This document shows positions 12,675-64,000 of a DNA stretch of 64,000 nt, in pieces (the stretch's first letter is position 1; each line of letters begins with the position of its first letter). Position numbers and translations under genes: made by a program. Under the pieces are notes generated by a model. It made no database searches, was not told where the DNA came from, and saw only the letters and a list, made by a program, of their open reading frames with translations. Source of the stretch: Methanobacteriaceae archaeon (GTDB lineage Archaea; Methanobacteriota; Methanobacteria; Methanobacteriales; Methanobacteriaceae); NCBI GenBank assembly GCA_029219465.1, contig JAQXTL010000004.1:248001-312000 (forward strand), written 5' to 3'.

Positions 12675-13124
12675 ATGAAAATTTGTAAGGCAACAAAAGA
12701 AGACTTACCTCAAATACTTGATTTACAGTATTTAGCATACCAAAGTGAAGCCGAATATTTAAATAACTATAATATTCCTCCACTAAAACAGACATTAGAC
12801 GAGTTGGAAGAGGAATTTGAAAATAAAATTATTTTAAAAGCCATATCTGATGAAAATAAAATCATCGGATCTGTTCGTGGAAATTTACAAGACAATACCG
12901 TCTACATAGGTAAACTAATGGTTCATCCAGATTACAGAAACAGAGGTTTAGGAAGTAAACTTTTATTAGAAATTGAAAATTATTTCCCAAAATCAAGGTA
13001 TGAACTCTTTACAAGTACTCAAAGTGCACATAATATCAGATTATATGAAGAAGTAGGATATGTTGCATTTGATCAAAGAAAAGTAGATGATAAACTAACC
13101 TTTGTTTATCTGGAAAAACAATAA
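12675..13124 (+). CDS. GNAT family N-acetyltransferase
   Basis: A 149-residue single-domain acetyltransferase. Motif A, the acetyl-CoA binding stretch, is clear: IGKLMVHPDYRNRGLGSKLL (about residues 77-96), including R-x-x-G-L-G. The late STQSAHNIRLYEEVGYVAF is motif B. These enzymes pass acetyl groups from acetyl-CoA to amines; the substrate here cannot be read from the sequence. The start ATG 12675 has a GTGATAT site upstream. It is a single gene, ended by the hairpin shared with the convergent adhesin gene. Confidence 0.85.
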   Translation: MKICKATKEDLPQILDLQYLAYQSEAEYLNNYNIPPLKQTLDELEEEFENKIILKAISDENKIIGSVRGNLQDNTVYIGKLMVHPDYRNRGLGSKLLLEIENYFPKSRYELFTSTQSAHNIRLYEEVGYVAFDQRKVDDKLTFVYLEKQ

Positions 13125-13169: not shown

Positions 13170-15166
13170 TTAATTTTTGTAGTCAAACGTGGTTCCATAG
13201 GTACTTGTTGACTTAAAACCAACTTTAACAGTGTATTTTTTATTTGCTTTTAATTTAATGGTAAGTTTTGCCTGTCCTTTGCTGTTTGTTGTTTTATAAT
13301 AGGTTTTACCATTAATTTTGGATTTAACTTTAGTATTTTTAATTACTTTATTATCTGCAGTTTTAAAAGTAACAACCAATTGTTTATTTTTGCGAACAGT
13401 AGTTTTTGAAACTTTAATAATAGGTTTTAGAATTTTTACTTTAATGGTTTTGCTAGTTCCTGTGTAATATTTATTTCCATTGTAAATAACTTTAATATTA
13501 AATTTATTAGGAGTATTTTTAACATAGAAATTAGCTATTCCATAACTGTTAGTATAAGCAGTGTAAGTTTTACCATCTACTTGAATAGATACTTTTTCAC
13601 ATTTAATTCCTGCATTGTTGCAGTTTACCAATTTTACAGATAACTTTTTAGAACTTTGATAATATTTTACAAAATCATTTACAACCAAAGTAGTGTATTT
13701 TGAATCTACCTTAATATACAAAGTTTGATTGTTGATAGTTGCGTAAACTACATCCTCATAAGAGTTAGGCTTAATATTAAATGTTGCAACACCATTTACA
13801 AGTTTCTTTGTAATTGATTGTGAGAATGTATGAACAGTAACTTCCAAAGGAAGATTGATTGTTTCATTTAACTTATAGATTTGTTTTGTTTCATTATCCT
13901 AGTAATAATTTAAATCTACAGTCACTAAATTATCTTTATTTTTGTATACAACACCATTATTTGCTGAAAAAGTCATAACCAACCATCTGGAAGCGTTGAT
14001 TTTTTGAGGTGTGTAGTTACTATTATGTGGACAGTAGTAATAAGAACTAATTGTATTTTGACCCCACCAGCAATATTGTATGGTTGCAGTTTCATCTAAT
14101 CCGAAATCACCAAATTTTTCATTTTCAATAAGATAGTTTCCAACAATAGCACAGTTTTTCATAAAAAGATCTGTGTCTTCATAGTTGTTACTTACTGCTG
14201 CAAGATAACCTGCGTGATTTTTTTCAAATATAGAATTATAAACTTCAGTTAAAACATGATGACCACTTGGAGGTGCTAATAGAGCAGCAGCATAATATTG
14301 AACATCATTATATCCAAAATAACTGTTGTTAATAAGAGCATACTTATGGTTACTTATAGCCCCACCAGTATAGTTTGTAGATAGATTAACAAACCTGCAG
14401 TTGTTGATTGTTGCATTACCAAGATTTAACAAAGCACCTGCTGAATAAACAGAATAACTGTCAGAAAATGTACAACCGTCAAGGTTTAAGATTCCATCAG
14501 CCACCATACATGCTCCAACACTATCTCCTGCAGTTAAAACGTTTTTAGTGAAAATAGAATTTTTAACATCAGTATTTCCACTTGTAAAAACAGCCCCACC
14601 ATACTTTGTTGCAGTATTATTCATAATACATGAATCTTCAATTATTAATGTTCCTGAACTGATTATTGCTCCTGCATTTCTTTGTGCTTTAGAATTAGAT
14701 AAAATGGAGTTTTTAATTGTAATTTCTCCACCATCATTATAAATTAATCCACCAAAATCAGCAAAACCGTTAGTTAAAGTAAGATTAATTAAAGTTAATT
14801 TAGCATTTGAATTCATTGTGAATAATCTTGAAATAGATTCACAATCAACAATAGTACTTTCTTTTGATTTACCGATGAGAGTAACAGATTTATCCAATGT
14901 AATATTTCTGTTATTTTCACCAGAGTATTTTCCTTCATTTAAATATATAGTAGAATCCATCGAAGTAGAATTAATAGCATATCCTATACTAGCGTAAGGA
15001 TTTTGAGGACTTCCATCCCCTAAATTATCATCACCATCAGGTGAAATATATACTTCAAAGGAATCTAAACTAGCAATATTCTCTTCTACTGCACTAACAC
15101 AGCTTACTGTTAGAATTACTGATAAAATCAATAAAAAAACAGCTATTTTTTATATCGCATATTCAT
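13170..15166 (-). pseudogene. Adhesin-like protein, frameshift plus amber stop
   Basis: One adhesin gene broken twice. The original start is ATG 15166 behind GGGGGAA; it reads MNMRYKK and then runs into TAG. Adding one A to the six-A run (15146-15151 on the given strand as T) restores a classic signal peptide, IAVFLLILSVILTVSCVSA, and the long frame. That frame encodes a right-handed beta-helix of polymorphic repeats (many NSxF and GGAI/GGAL turns) up to about residue 400, then an in-frame TAG at 13899-13901. The same frame continues to 13170 with Ig-like domains of the kind seen in the intact adhesin at 48886-51957. Such proteins are secreted surface proteins of gut methanogens. As read, no full-length protein is made. 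Confidence 0.85.
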
Positions 15167-15343
15167 TTCCCCCATATGTATAAATATTCTTATCGATAGT
15201 ATTATGTTAGTAAAATAAAATTAATAAAGATATCTAAAAAAATTTGATACAATTACAATAAAATAGTAAAAACGAATTTTTAATCCTAAATTTTAAATAA
15301 CTCCAATTAAATAAGTATTATTAATTTAAAAAAAGGTGAAATT

Positions 15344-15964
15344 ATGCCGGAAACAGATTATTTAAAAATACCTCAAAATAGAGTAGGGGCATTAATTGGA
15401 AGCAATGGAGGAGTTAAAAGATCCATTGAAAAAGCAACTGGCACTATTTTAGATATTGATAGTGATGAAGGTACTGTTTACATAACACCTAGTGACAATA
15501 TGGAAGACCCATTAGGAGTTTGGAATGCAAACCATATTGTTAAAGCAGTTGCACGTGGTTTCAATCCGGAAGTTGCATTAAAATTAGTTAGCGACGATTA
15601 TTATTTGGAAGTAATTAGCCTCCCGTTATATATTGGAAAATCCAAAAAAGCCCTTGCAAGACACAAAGGTAGAATTATTGGAAAAGATGGAAAAACACGT
15701 GAAATTATTATGGAAATGGCTGAAGTAGATATGGCAGTTTATGGTAAGACTGTTTCATTTATTGGTGAAATGGACAACATAATGGTTGCTAAAGAAGCTA
15801 TTGAAATGATTTTAAAAGGATCCAGACACAAATCAGTTTACGGATTCTTAGAACATAAAAAAGAAGAATTAAAAATGAAAGAATTCAAAGACCTTGTTGG
15901 AATTGAAGATGATAAAATCGAATTCAAAGACGGCATTGACTTTGATGAAAAAACCTTAGAGTAA
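15344..15964 (+). CDS. Archaeal KH-domain protein (Pno1/Dim2-like)
   Basis: A 206-residue RNA-binding protein with two KH domains: VGALIGSNGGVKRSIEKATG (about residues 13-32) and RIIGKDGKTREIIMEMAEVD (about 108-127), each with the G-x-x-G loop. It matches the universal archaeal KH protein related to eukaryotic Pno1/Dim2, which helps mature the 3' end of small-subunit rRNA. The start ATG 15344 is preceded by AAAGGTGA. In many archaea the gene follows a Rio1 kinase gene; none is seen directly upstream here. It is transcribed towards topoisomerase VI, which has its own promoter. Confidence 0.85.
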   Translation: MPETDYLKIPQNRVGALIGSNGGVKRSIEKATGTILDIDSDEGTVYITPSDNMEDPLGVWNANHIVKAVARGFNPEVALKLVSDDYYLEVISLPLYIGKSKKALARHKGRIIGKDGKTREIIMEMAEVDMAVYGKTVSFIGEMDNIMVAKEAIEMILKGSRHKSVYGFLEHKKEELKMKEFKDLVGIEDDKIEFKDGIDFDEKTLE

Positions 15965-24801: not shown

Positions 24802-25995
24802 TTAATTAAAAATATACTCACACGCTGCAAGAATATCCTCATTTTCATCTTTTGCAGCTTTTTTTACTTTTTTAGAAACATCATAAAATATCTTATTAAC
24901 AATAGAATTTGTTAAATTATCCAATATTTTATCGCTACCATCTACATCACTTAACTTGCCAATAGCTTTTTGAGTTTCACGTTCACGTATATACTCCATA
25001 GATGCTCTTAAATTACCAAGTAATTCATCAACTTTCATTATTTTAAAGGATTCTTTAAGTAAAATGAACTCATCATTGATGATATTTTCTGCTTCAGCAA
25101 ATTCCTTTTTTCTAAGGTTAGTATTTATCTCAGCAATTTCTCTTAAGTTGTCAATATTGAATGACTTGACACCTAATTCCAAAACATCTTCTGAAATATC
25201 ACGAGGATTTGCAATATCAATTAACATTAAGCTTTCATAATCCCTAGGACTTTTTAATAAACGTTCTTTAGTAATAATCGGGTGAGGCGCACTGGTAGCA
25301 CTAATAACCAAGTCAGCAGTTGCCAAATACTTTTCTAGGTCATTAAATAAAATAGCTTCACCGCCTAAATCCTTAGCAAGGTCTACTGCAACATAATAAG
25401 TCCTGTTTGCAACAAAAATAGCATTTAAATCTTTCTCAGCAAGTGCTTTAGCAACTAATTTACCCATTTTTCCAGCACCAATTACCAAAACAGATTTGTT
25501 TTCCAAATCACCAATATATTTTTCAGCCAAATCAATAGCTGCAGAACCAATTGATACAGAACCTTTGTTGATATTGGTTTTATTTCTAACAACCTGACCA
25601 ACATGAATAGCTTTTGTAAAAATAGCATCCAAAATTTTACCACAGTGACGATCTTTAACTGCTTTGTGCTTTGCATCCTTAACCTGACCTAAAATCTGGT
25701 CTTCTCCAACAATCATAGATTCTAAACCGGAAGTCATACGTAAAAGGTGCATAACAGCAGACTGACCATAATCAATAACAATACTCTTGTTTTCATGAGA
25801 AAGTAACTCTTCATCTTCAGGAATATGCTTATTGTGAATGAAATATTCCTTTCTGTTACATGTACTAATCTCAATATATTCAACAATAGAATATTTTTCT
25901 TGTAGTTTTGCAAATAATTCGTCAATATCTTTTGAAATAATCTCCATAGACTGAATATCTGCAAGTTTATGGTCAACTCTTAAATTTAATATCAA
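24802..25995 (-). CDS. hemA: Glutamyl-tRNA reductase
   Basis: A 397-residue enzyme that reduces glutamyl-tRNA to glutamate-1-semialdehyde, the first step of tetrapyrrole synthesis (cobamide, F430, sirohaem, haem d1-type products). The catalytic cysteine is C46 in EISTCNRKEYF. The NADPH site is LVIGAGKMGKLVA, and the C-terminal dimerisation helices follow. The start is TTG 25995, supported by AAGGGGAT; it overlaps the stop of the upstream dehydrogenase gene by four bases, so translation is coupled. The start codon may keep expression modest. Confidence 0.95.
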   Translation of the reverse strand: MILNLRVDHKLADIQSMEIISKDIDELFAKLQEKYSIVEYIEISTCNRKEYFIHNKHIPEDEELLSHENKSIVIDYGQSAVMHLLRMTSGLESMIVGEDQILGQVKDAKHKAVKDRHCGKILDAIFTKAIHVGQVVRNKTNINKGSVSIGSAAIDLAEKYIGDLENKSVLVIGAGKMGKLVAKALAEKDLNAIFVANRTYYVAVDLAKDLGGEAILFNDLEKYLATADLVISATSAPHPIITKERLLKSPRDYESLMLIDIANPRDISEDVLELGVKSFNIDNLREIAEINTNLRKKEFAEAENIINDEFILLKESFKIMKVDELLGNLRASMEYIRERETQKAIGKLSDVDGSDKILDNLTNSIVNKIFYDVSKKVKKAAKDENEDILAACEYIFN

Positions 25996-26612
25996 TTTAA
26001 TCCCCTTATCAAATCGTCAATATAATCTTTGGCTTCGACAATATTTCTATTTTTAATTAAAACATTGATTTTTTCATCTTCAAAAATTTCATAAAGACAT
26101 TTTCTTCTATCTTTCTGGTCTTGAACGATTCCTTTTAATTTGTTTCTGGCATAATCCTGAAGTTCTATTTCCAAGATATCCTCTTCAGTAATTATTGATT
26201 GAATTTTTTTTCTTAATTGGCGAGCCATAAGTGGGCTTTTTCCACCGGTAAAAATAGAAATTTCAATATCTCCAATATTAAAACTTGTTGGAACAATTAC
26301 ATTTCCTTCACTAGGAAAATCTGCTCTGTTAAGAAGTTTATCTTCAGCAATTTTAGAAACATAATTGGACAGGGTTCTATCCCCACTAGCTATTACAACA
26401 AAATCAGACCATTCAACTAAATCATCAACGTCCTCAGTAGAGCATAAAATAGCTCCTTTTGATACTAATTCATCAGCCAAATTATCTCCAGCCAGTTTAA
26501 CATTAGCACCATGGTCTAAAAATTTATTTGCACGTCTTGTTGCAACTTCGCCAGTTCCTAAAATAAAAACATTCAAATTAGATGTTTTTAAATAAATAGA
26601 AGTCCAGTCCAT
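25992..26612 (-). CDS. Precorrin-2 dehydrogenase / sirohaem synthase N-domain
   Basis: A CysG-N/Met8p-like enzyme of about 206 residues. MDWTSIYLKTSNLNVFILGT leads into a Rossmann fold with GTGEVATRRANKFLDHGA, then TSFNIGDIEISIFTGGKSPL, the conserved middle of the family. It oxidises precorrin-2 to sirohydrochlorin with NAD and may add iron. Sirohydrochlorin feeds coenzyme F430 and sirohaem. I chose ATG 26612, just after the upstream stop; ATG 26621 is also possible. It is sandwiched between the marker-9-like gene and hemA in one minus-strand operon. Confidence 0.88.
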   Translation of the reverse strand: MDWTSIYLKTSNLNVFILGTGEVATRRANKFLDHGANVKLAGDNLADELVSKGAILCSTEDVDDLVEWSDFVVIASGDRTLSNYVSKIAEDKLLNRADFPSEGNVIVPTSFNIGDIEISIFTGGKSPLMARQLRKKIQSIITEEDILEIELQDYARNKLKGIVQDQKDRRKCLYEIFEDEKINVLIKNRNIVEAKDYIDDLIRGLN

Positions 26613-26613
26613 T

Positions 26614-27093
26614 TTAATCATTATCAAGAGATTTAGCACGTAAAACTTTTACAGCAGCCCTTAAATCATCATTGCATTCTTTTAAAACATCCATTGCTTC
26701 AAGTTTGGTAATGTTGAATGTTTCTGCTAATGCTTCAGCTTTTTCATCAGGATCAGGTTTAGTAACTCCAACTAATCTCTCAGATAATTGTTTTTTTAAG
26801 TCTAAGTATTCTTCATGACTTAATCCAATACTATTTAATGACATATCTCTTAATGGACAAGGTTTAGATGGTTTACAACACCATACAAGTGATCCAAAGC
26901 AGGTTCCTGCTCCTTCACCTAATCTAGTTTCCCTACCGAATTGAGTTTTAATTTCAATATATTCTTTAGGAGTTAAGTTAACTTCCTGTAATGCATTTAA
27001 TACTGGGCACGGTTTTACTGGAGGACAACAAAAAGCAAGTCCTCTGACATCTCCTCCTCTACAAATATGAGACGGCGCATCTTCCCAAGTCAT
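26614..27093 (-). CDS. Methanogenesis marker 9-like cysteine-rich protein
   Basis: A 159-residue protein with two similar cysteine blocks: [15 protein letters not shown] (about residues 21-35) and [20 protein letters not shown] (about 64-83), with [11 protein letters not shown] in front. This pattern matches the domain called methanogenesis marker 9, found in methanogens, probably binding an iron-sulfur cluster or other metal. The last 45 residues look like a UBA-type helical bundle ([19 protein letters not shown]). It starts with GGAGGTTT before the ATG and heads the operon with precorrin-2 dehydrogenase and hemA, which suggests a link to F430 or cobamide supply. The exact function is unknown; the family call is from memory of the motif. 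Confidence 0.7.
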
Positions 27094-27221
27094 AATAAAC
27101 CTCCAAAAAATTCTTTATCATTGTAAAATTATTATTAAGAAATAATTATAAAATAATAATATAATTTATTCTACCAATAAATATATAATCTTTTTTATAA
27201 ATTAAATTAAAATTAAGTATT

Positions 27222-52310: not shown

Positions 52311-53654
52311 TTAGTATTCTTCTTTATGTTCTTTTCTTCTGTATCCTATGATTAGTAAAATTAATGCAATAACAATCATACTAACGACTTGAATATGATT
52401 CACGTCATCATCAATTTTTTTAGTCACTTCATAGGATTTCGCATCAGATGACTCGGATTGACTGCTTCCGGCACCTGATCCTGAAGATGAAGAAGCACCC
52501 GCAATATTAACGCCTGAAGAACCATATGTATAATGTGTTGAGTTTAAATCTCCATTGTGTGCTTGTGAATTGCTATTGTTTGGATTATTTCCAAAAATGT
52601 TATTGTTGCCGTTACCATTGTTTCCGGGATTCAGGGAGTTTCCGCCATTATTCAACCAACCTAATCCCAATCCATTTCCTTTAAATGGGCTTTTAAGGTA
52701 ATTTTTCAATCCATTGGAATATTCATCAGCTGTCATTTTACGTACTGGTTTGGAACCATCAGTATTGTTGACAACAACATTTCCTGTACCGCCTGTAACA
52801 TATACTGCACGGTTTCCACCATACTTTCTACCATTGAGGATGTTATTTGCAACAATAGAATCAGACACAGTGGAACTGCCTCCACCTTTCAACGCTACTG
52901 CATAATCACTGTTTGTTGAAACATTATTGTACTGTATATTGTAGTTATGATCTCCCTTTGTGGTTTGTGAATAACTTATACCATAAACATTGAATCCTTT
53001 TTCAAAGGCATTTACAGTATCAACAATGATAGTGTTATTCATTATTCTATCATCAGAGTCCTGCACTTCAATTCCAGCAACCAAAGCCCAACTGTGTTTA
53101 CTCGCATAACCTGTAACATTAATAAAATTACTGAAAATATCCAAATGTGTTATACCATAGATTGGTGAACTGATATCAAATAAAATTGTATTAATTCCTT
53201 GACCTATAAAAGTAACATTATATTTTAATGCATGTTCCACTTTTGCTTGAATTCCAGAATATTTTCCATCAGCCACATATATTATTCCTTCTCTATCGCC
53301 ATTATCTGCTAGTTCACACAATGCATCATCAATAGCCCATTCTCCACCAAATGCGTTTTCCCAACTAGACCCATCATCCCCATCAGCAGAATTATTCACA
53401 TAATAAATTATTTCATCATTTGATAACACTTCATCATTATATCCATTACAGTTTGGAATTGTTATATCAATAGAACTGTATCCTATCTCTTGCACATCAC
53501 CCTATTCAACAGAAACTTCATCCATATATGTATCAATTTCATATGATGAACCACTAGATATATTATCATTAACATCTTCATTTGCACTTACGGTTCCCAT
53601 TAAACAAATAAGCACAAAGAATACTGATAATATTCTGATTTTGTTAAATTTCAA
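52311..53654 (-). pseudogene. Adhesin-like protein with in-frame amber stop
   Basis: A paralogue of the intact adhesin. The frame starts at TTG 53654 with a signal peptide (KIRILSVFFVLICLMGTVSA) and runs to a TAG at 53502-53504 after 50 residues. It then continues in the same frame to 52311: a short beta-helix (VNNSADGDDGSSWENAFGG onward), a Ser/Gly-rich linker, and a C-terminal span with basic tail (VVSMIVIALILLIIGYRR). Before the TTG the GGAGGA of the intact copy has become AGAGAG. Both changes point to decay. Without the amber stop it would be a 447-residue membrane-anchored surface protein. Confidence 0.8.
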
Positions 53655-63136: not shown

Positions 63137-64000
63137 ATAATAATTTGTTCATTGGGTGGTTTTCTACAGGTTCGGTACCGAAGTCTGCTGCAGCTTCAGC
63201 TATAAACATATCAGTTTGTGCAACAGCAGGGAAAGCGATTTTAGCGTTATCGATAGGTCCGAAGAGAACAAAGTCTCCACCACACATTACTTGAACAATG
63301 TTTGCACCAATATCACAAACAGTGTAAGCATCTTTGTGACCTGCTTTTTTGTAGTCTCTTAACCAGTCCCATGCGGATGGTACGTTGTGAATACCTGATC
63401 CTACAGGGTATCCCCATTTAGCTTTTTCTGCGAAGGTGGTTTTTGCAGCAATACCTGCACCTTGACCTAAAGGAGTTACAGCAGTATCCATCATGAATTT
63501 TGTAATACCACAGTCAGCAGCAACTTCGAGTAAACCTTTTTCGTATGCACCGTCGTCACCGTTTTCCCACATAGCCATTTTACCGTCAACAGTAGCGTTC
63601 ATAGGGTTGAAACCTAAGATAATAGAAGCAGAAATATCAGTTTCAGCTAAAGCGTCTAATTCAGATTTGTCTGCTGCCATGTTAATAGAGTTGTAAATAG
63701 CTCTTTCGGTTAATCCTGCTTCATCAGCGTATTGAGCACCAGCTACTCTTGCATCACCGGATGTAGAGTCGATAAGGAATGGAGCGTCAACTTGTTCTCC
63801 AACAAATTCAATGTATTTTACGATTGCTTCTTCAGTTTGTCCGAATACTTGTACAATGTATGGGTTACCTGTAACGTCTGAAATTTCAGCCATATCATTA
63901 AGTAAAGTTTCAGCTCTTGCTTTATCAAAATCTCCAGTCAATTCATCATTAATAATGTTGTGACCACCGTAGAAAATAGTCCCTGCTAAAACTGTAGGGT
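63135..64000 (-). CDS. mtrH: Methyltransferase subunit MtrH, 5' end beyond window
   Basis: The catalytic methyl-transfer subunit of the membrane Mtr complex; it moves the methyl group from methyl-tetrahydromethanopterin to the corrinoid of MtrA, while the complex pumps sodium. At least 287 codons are visible from the edge: TVLAGTIFYGGHNIINDE, then FLIDSTSGDARVAGAQYADE and ILGFNPMNAT, typical of MtrH. The frame is open upstream of the TTG at about 63941, so the start lies outside. It ends in TAG followed by a terminator. Confidence 0.95.
   Translation of the reverse strand, partial: PTVLAGTIFYGGHNIINDELTGDFDKARAETLLNDMAEISDVTGNPYIVQVFGQTEEAIVKYIEFVGEQVDAPFLIDSTSGDARVAGAQYADEAGLTERAIYNSINMAADKSELDALAETDISASIILGFNPMNATVDGKMAMWENGDDGAYEKGLLEVAADCGITKFMMDTAVTPLGQGAGIAAKTTFAEKAKWGYPVGSGIHNVPSAWDWLRDYKKAGHKDAYTVCDIGANIVQVMCGGDFVLFGPIDNAKIAFPAVAQTDMFIAEAAADFGTEPVENHPMNKLL

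Follow-up and report, generated by a model that had tools for sequence, protein, structure and literature searches.

A gene for a putative adhesin-like protein in a Methanobacteriaceae archaeon begins with an ATG that runs through six A's straight into a stop codon, and the question that this locus raises is whether the homopolymer is a device that switches a surface protein on and off or the site of one injury in a gene that has been ruined. The disruption of adhesin-like-protein genes has precedent: in Methanobrevibacter smithii KB11, the adhesin-like gene BK798_03360, a homologue of Msm_0173, is described as frameshifted (PMC5814497), and both pseudogenes and adhesin-like proteins are reported to be more numerous in intestinal Methanobacteriota (PMC13135261). 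Telling a switch from a ruin calls for a tally of the lesions against orthologues before the homopolymer is given a meaning, and the present study undertook such a tally, together with an analysis of selection, a survey of other adhesin-type genes, and a comparison of start sites among adhesin-like families.

Methods

The window, by which we mean the whole stretch of DNA analysed, comprises 64,000 nucleotides (G000:C4:248001-312000); the genome to which it belongs spans 1.66 Mb in 21 contigs and is 99.57% complete. Orthologues of the adhesin gene were sought in 67 Methanobrevibacter genomes with the N-terminal 165 residues of an orthologue from the sister clade as the query. The alignment set drew on orthologues from 20 loci, from which four duplicates were removed to leave 16, and selection was analysed over 649 of the 838 alignment columns. 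Membership in the sister clade was assigned by similarity and tree, and for L227 by similarity alone. Signal-peptide regions were scanned among the collected loci, adhesins and others, a frame being counted if it reached 250 codons and had a signal-peptide-like start. Open adhesin-type frames in the genome were defined by a Big_1 or beta-helix match at an E-value of 0.001 or better, and five broken ones (L099-L102 and L111) were called from their reading frames alone, orthologues not being used. Coordinates of the principal features are given in Table 1.

Table 1. Coordinates of the features discussed; positions are those of the window unless a contig is named
Feature	Position	Strand	Basis
Shine-Dalgarno-like GGGGG	15169..15173	minus	sequence; aligns with GGAGG/GGGGG of orthologues
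Start and premature stop, ATG AAT ATG CGA TAT AAA AAA TAG (lesion 1)	15143..15166	minus	sequence and orthologues
Signal-peptide coding stretch IAVFLLILSVILTVSCVSA, severed from the start	15090..15146	minus	long frame, aligned with orthologues
Beta-helix domain (approximate)	14076..15056	minus	structure model and Foldseek
In-frame amber codon (lesion 2)	13899..13901	minus	orthologue comparison
Ig-like (Big_1-like) stretch	13191..13382	minus	Pfam
Altered 3' end, two bases short of the orthologues between 13189 and 13188 (lesion 3)	13170..13190	minus	orthologue comparison
L098, the own-genome member (1186 codons) of the adhesin family with ATT at its start site	G000:C4:406497-410057	minus	

The locus and the encoded protein

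The gene is flanked on one side by 12675-13124, which we take to encode a GNAT acetyltransferase, and on the other, at 15344, by a conserved gene that we read as coding for a KH-domain protein. Relatives were matched by protein search at 13 loci, 11 from Methanobrevibacter metagenome assemblies and two bacterial; the record titles of three of the Methanobrevibacter relatives name goat, roe deer or water buffalo. Copies from the same species were absent from these 13 genome-contig loci, the best being 69% identical, in a search set that may omit the genomes nearest to that of the window, and none was found in the viral contigs searched. In two relatives (L018 and L035), the gene preceding the conserved gene at 15344 is a homologue of the window's gene at 63138-63998 (minus strand), presumably mtrH, while other relatives differ there; because these two carry that homologue before the 15344 gene, the broken adhesin seems, by gene order, to sit at a rearrangement breakpoint on its 15166-15344 side.

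By its predicted domains, the gene is a Methanobrevibacter adhesin-like gene with a beta-helix and Ig-like domains. Residues 1-414 of the window copy were modelled as a beta-helix with a mean pLDDT of 76.9 (under 50 for residues 1-27, 338-344 and 362-414), and the model's Foldseek matches in the PDB are beta-helix enzymes and rhombotarget A, with TM-scores of at most 0.46 among the matches listed. The same 414 residues had no match in a Pfam search, and the NCBIfam model of rhombotarget A scored 23.8 bits, far short of its cut-off of 295. The Big_1 stretch scores 28.6 bits in the window copy, below the cut-off of 34.9, and 43.3 bits in the orthologue L037. Intact orthologues encode a signal peptide, a beta-helix and Ig-like domains, a predicted set typical of adhesin-like proteins, adhesion itself being putative.

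Orthologous copies numbered 20, all with E-values no higher than 1e-47; the match that followed them stood at 3e-22. Eighteen of them are open over 680-785 codons; the two broken copies are that of the window and a second copy in genome G036, and all 16 distinct orthologues of the alignment set are open between stops over the same range of lengths. The second copy in G036 (L229, at G036:C223) is of the sister type, in a genome that also carries an open one; its signal peptide is interrupted by a frame shift, and an in-frame stop follows downstream.

Three lesions against an open set of orthologues

ATGs at 15166 and 15160 share one frame, which on the minus strand reads into TATAAAAAATAG; the six A's (15151-15146) are followed directly by a TAG (15145-15143), so that the stop comes after seven codons from 15166. 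The long frame opens at 15149, meets the TAG at 13901-13899 and continues to a TAA at 13172-13170. Inspection by eye recognised a signal peptide in the orthologues as well as in the long frame, and in the window copy it is separated from the start, while the upstream region and the Shine-Dalgarno sequence are conserved relative to the orthologues. Restart of the long frame at an ATA (15146) or a TTG (15131) was considered and judged unlikely, the Shine-Dalgarno sequence not lying at a useful distance from either.

At the homologous place, seven A's stand in orthologue L040 and five in L037; in the eight remaining near orthologues the runs are shorter or interrupted. The longest A-runs in the n-region range from 2 to 7 across the ten near orthologues, with six or more at the homologous place in L040 alone; L046 also has a seven-A run, elsewhere in the n-region. 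The aligner set the missing base in a T-run just downstream of the A-run. Loss inside the A-run would be the simpler reading, because loss in the T-run would demand three further substitutions to arrive at the TAG. The original prediction had described a start codon running through six A's into a stop, a gene one base short near the start of its signal peptide, and a further in-frame TAG at 13899. The two stops were confirmed to the base against a background of open orthologues, and the seven A's of L040 bear out the missing base.

The amber codon corresponds to phenylalanine in all 16 orthologues (TTT in 12 and TTC in four), so that it lies two or more base changes away from their codons. Decoding of the amber codon as pyrrolysine was rejected, as the best match to PylS in the genome reached 41.7 bits relative to a cut-off of 178.15.

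The third lesion, which had been missed in the original prediction, alters the 3' end: the window copy ends in TTFDYKN* at its early TAA, and most orthologues end in TTLTKKIKVIK* or close to it. Orthologue L008, which is otherwise open, also shows a shift of two bases at the 3' side, its own end being altered, and given this example, the third lesion by itself need not inactivate the gene.

Other broken adhesin-type genes

The genome holds seven broken-looking adhesin-type genes, that of the window included, relative to 17 open frames of at least 600 aa. One in-frame stop interrupts L102 and two interrupt L101, and frame shifts occur in L100 and in L099 (own genome, C6). In L111 (G000:C4:361000-365000), frame shifts lie in a lysine-rich linker beside a run of nine A's, which would make it a better place than the window gene in which to seek variation in tract length.

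A second broken adhesin-type gene in the window, at 52311-53654 (minus strand), carries an in-frame TAG at 53504-53502. In the part that follows this TAG, residues 22-131 match adhesins of 1007-1039 codons and residues from about 95 onward match, at the six best places elsewhere, frames of 666-699 codons, and the gene is seemingly two neighbouring adhesins that may have been fused through a deletion. Overlapping open reading frames at 24802-27114 were also suspected of hiding a frameshift; these proved to be three genes, methanogenesis marker 9, a CysG-like gene and HemA.

The signal-peptide scan returned 133 distinct signal-peptide-like ORFs, of which 113 have a plausible in-frame start with a Shine-Dalgarno sequence. 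Among the 20 lacking an in-frame start, the window gene is the only one into which an ATG, GTG or TTG start in another frame runs. In this coarse scan, the 133 ORFs gave no sign of a frameshift hot spot in signal peptides; it missed L099, which went unrecognised, and L229, which is too short, both with signal-peptide shifts seen by eye and both with further lesions.

Past constraint and recent decay

Mean pairwise dN/dS between the window copy and the ten near orthologues is 0.163, compared with 0.080-0.161 among the near orthologues themselves, with dS partly saturated (undefined for one pair in most sequences and for six pairs in L041). In comparisons with each near orthologue in turn, averaged over six outgroups, private residues number 66-75 in the window copy and 42-58 in its partner. 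Where the other 16 sequences all agree, the window copy is changed at 11 of 183 sites, the highest count; for the remaining sequences the figure lies between 0 of 172 and 10 of 182, such changes numbering 0-6 in the near orthologues and 2-10 in the sister clade. In the codon tree, several nodes of which are weakly supported, the window tip measures 1.12 relative to 0.30-0.77 for the near orthologues, and this long branch may account for part of the excess of unusual changes. For the greater part of its history the gene has clearly been under constraint, and its surplus of unusual changes is modest. On relaxed selection across the rest of the gene, which the original prediction had raised, the comparison showed mainly past constraint, as opposed to relaxation throughout the gene's history; since past constraint is clear, the loss would be recent, with no long period of relaxed selection behind it.

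We conclude that this gut Methanobrevibacter gene, which coded for a secreted adhesin-like protein, is very probably a recently inactivated pseudogene. It differs from its open orthologues by three lesions, each of a different kind (the loss of one base, a nonsense codon and a two-base difference at the 3' end); its frame is blocked after five to seven codons, blocked again after the beta-helix, and altered at its end. Recent decay covers all three, and slippage can reverse only one of them. Decay, which the original prediction had entertained on account of the amber codon, is supported by the three lesions and by the other broken adhesin-type genes of the genome. On this evidence, a base of the A-run was probably lost through ordinary slippage, the homopolymer being the likely cause of the first lesion and not a device; translation would then end after five to seven residues and leave the adhesin absent from the surface, and the remaining lesions would have gathered under little or no opposing selection. 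The loss would be one among several in the adhesin set of this genome. The finding itself is a minor one: gut methanogens gain and lose adhesin-like genes, and the present gene appears to be on its way out.

The nearest parallel that we found is BK798_03360 of M. smithii, likewise a Methanobrevibacter adhesin-like gene that is intact in one genome and broken in another (PMC5814497). As described there, that comparison was between two strains of one species, whereas the window gene was compared with other species only; the M. smithii protein has DUF11 domains, unlike that of the window gene, and the window gene has three lesions.

Alternative explanations

Phase variation, in which slippage in the length of the A-run would turn the adhesin on and off, was the leading suggestion of the original prediction, and it has a sound model in Listeria inlA, a surface-protein gene that switches through a 5' A6/A7 run at about 1e-7 and, like the window gene, yields a very short truncated product (PMC2831843). 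The seven A's of L040 at the homologous place and the past constraint on the coding sequence would both suit such a switch. The idea fails here because other lesions are present: unlike inlA as described in that source, the window gene has two extra lesions, and its run is unconserved in the orthologues. The amber codon and the 3' lesion lie outside A-runs and persist at any length of the tract, which alone does not decide whether the gene is open. The tract is moreover short and, taken alone, ordinary, as A/T runs of at least six number 263 in the window (4.1 per kb), five of them within the adhesin gene; and a start-frame shift occurs in one of the 133 signal-peptide-like ORFs, namely the window gene. 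A literature search found nothing on phase variation of Methanobrevibacter adhesin-like proteins, and the main text of a study of ALP sequences (PMC11532034) lacks the words start codon, pseudogene, frameshift, phase and signal peptide. With two of the three lesions outside A-runs, we regard phase variation of this gene as very improbable.

Errors of sequencing or assembly could in principle produce two of the lesions, which are indels, one of them within a homopolymer. Such errors would have to include at least two substitutions in a conserved phenylalanine codon to yield the amber. Among eight window proteins scanned, top6B, hemA, methanogenesis marker 9 and the CysG N-terminal domain pass their cut-offs unsplit (in the same scan, SufC falls just below its cut-off and a SufB-like protein well below), and both of the broken genes noticed in the window, noticed in passing and not through a gene-by-gene search for frameshifts, are adhesin-type. 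Errors of this kind are thus a highly unlikely source of the three lesions.

Leaky expression through ribosomal -1 slippage or slippage of the transcript on the A-run is more improbable still, even with an archaeal case in fucA1 of S. solfataricus, which is likewise interrupted at an A-run one base off its full-length homologues (PMC8211752), and with a P-site slip from AAA to AAA ahead of the TAG possible by sequence: a slippery heptamer and a product are described for fucA1, whereas the zero frame of the window gene, TAT AAA AAA TAG, contains no X-XXY-YYZ heptamer. The downstream fold is weak (z = -1.69, with 11 of 200 shuffles folding equally well), and any product would end at the additional amber codon anyway.

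Candidate AUA and AUU start codons

Start codons AUU and AUA are thought to be rare. The comparison of orthologues brought up a by-product that outweighs the adhesin finding: Methanobrevibacter probably translates whole adhesin-like families from AUU and AUA start codons, these codons being the inferred start site of the ribosome. In the 11 open copies of the near clade the start is ATG throughout. In six of the seven open orthologues of the sister clade (L222, L223, L225, L226, L227 and L228), the site is ATA, preceded by a good Shine-Dalgarno sequence, and L224 (=L043) has ATG at the same site. From the upstream stop to the hydrophobic core, the six ATA copies contain no canonical start other than a TTG or GTG at the edge of the core in three of them (L045 (=L225), L016 (=L228) and L227); a canonical start occurs only inside the core in L014 and L047, and L044 has none.

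A separate adhesin family, represented in the window's own genome by L098 (Table 1), has ATT at the start site in all 29 distinct N-termini from 29 genomes, the own genome included, the 28 other loci being among L118-L143 and L193-L220. This count comes from an alignment-free scan of 60 loci that accepted any codon five bases past the Shine-Dalgarno sequence GAGGTG or GGGGTG before a signal-peptide-like frame, so that a start at another spacing would escape it; the remaining loci of the scan are domain matches or repeated N-termini. In the aligned subset, defined by a match within six residues of the query start, ATT stands in 16 of 16 distinct N-termini, and the codons that flank it vary (ATT, AAT, ATA or ACT before; AAA, AGG, AAG or AAT after). 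These 16 N-termini have no canonical start upstream in the open frame except in L192, where a TTG lies 12 codons before the ATT.

Among the titles and abstracts that a literature search found, none concerned an AUU start codon in an archaeal gene, and the corresponding search for AUA gave only work on Mycobacterium tuberculosis; both statements are confined to those search results and claim no wider absence from print. If AUU and AUA do serve as starts, the choice of start codon would be a control layer of the adhesin repertoire, the broken start of the window gene would be one casualty in a fast-changing region, and these families would allow a test in a natural system (PMC6237735).

A third adhesin family comprises L104 (G000:C13, 973 codons) and L147-L175; among the 26 N-termini listed, 23 carry TTG where translation would start. 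At that site, the copy in the window's own genome has TCG and L162 has TTT, both with ATT ATT just upstream, and L173 has an unrelated start.
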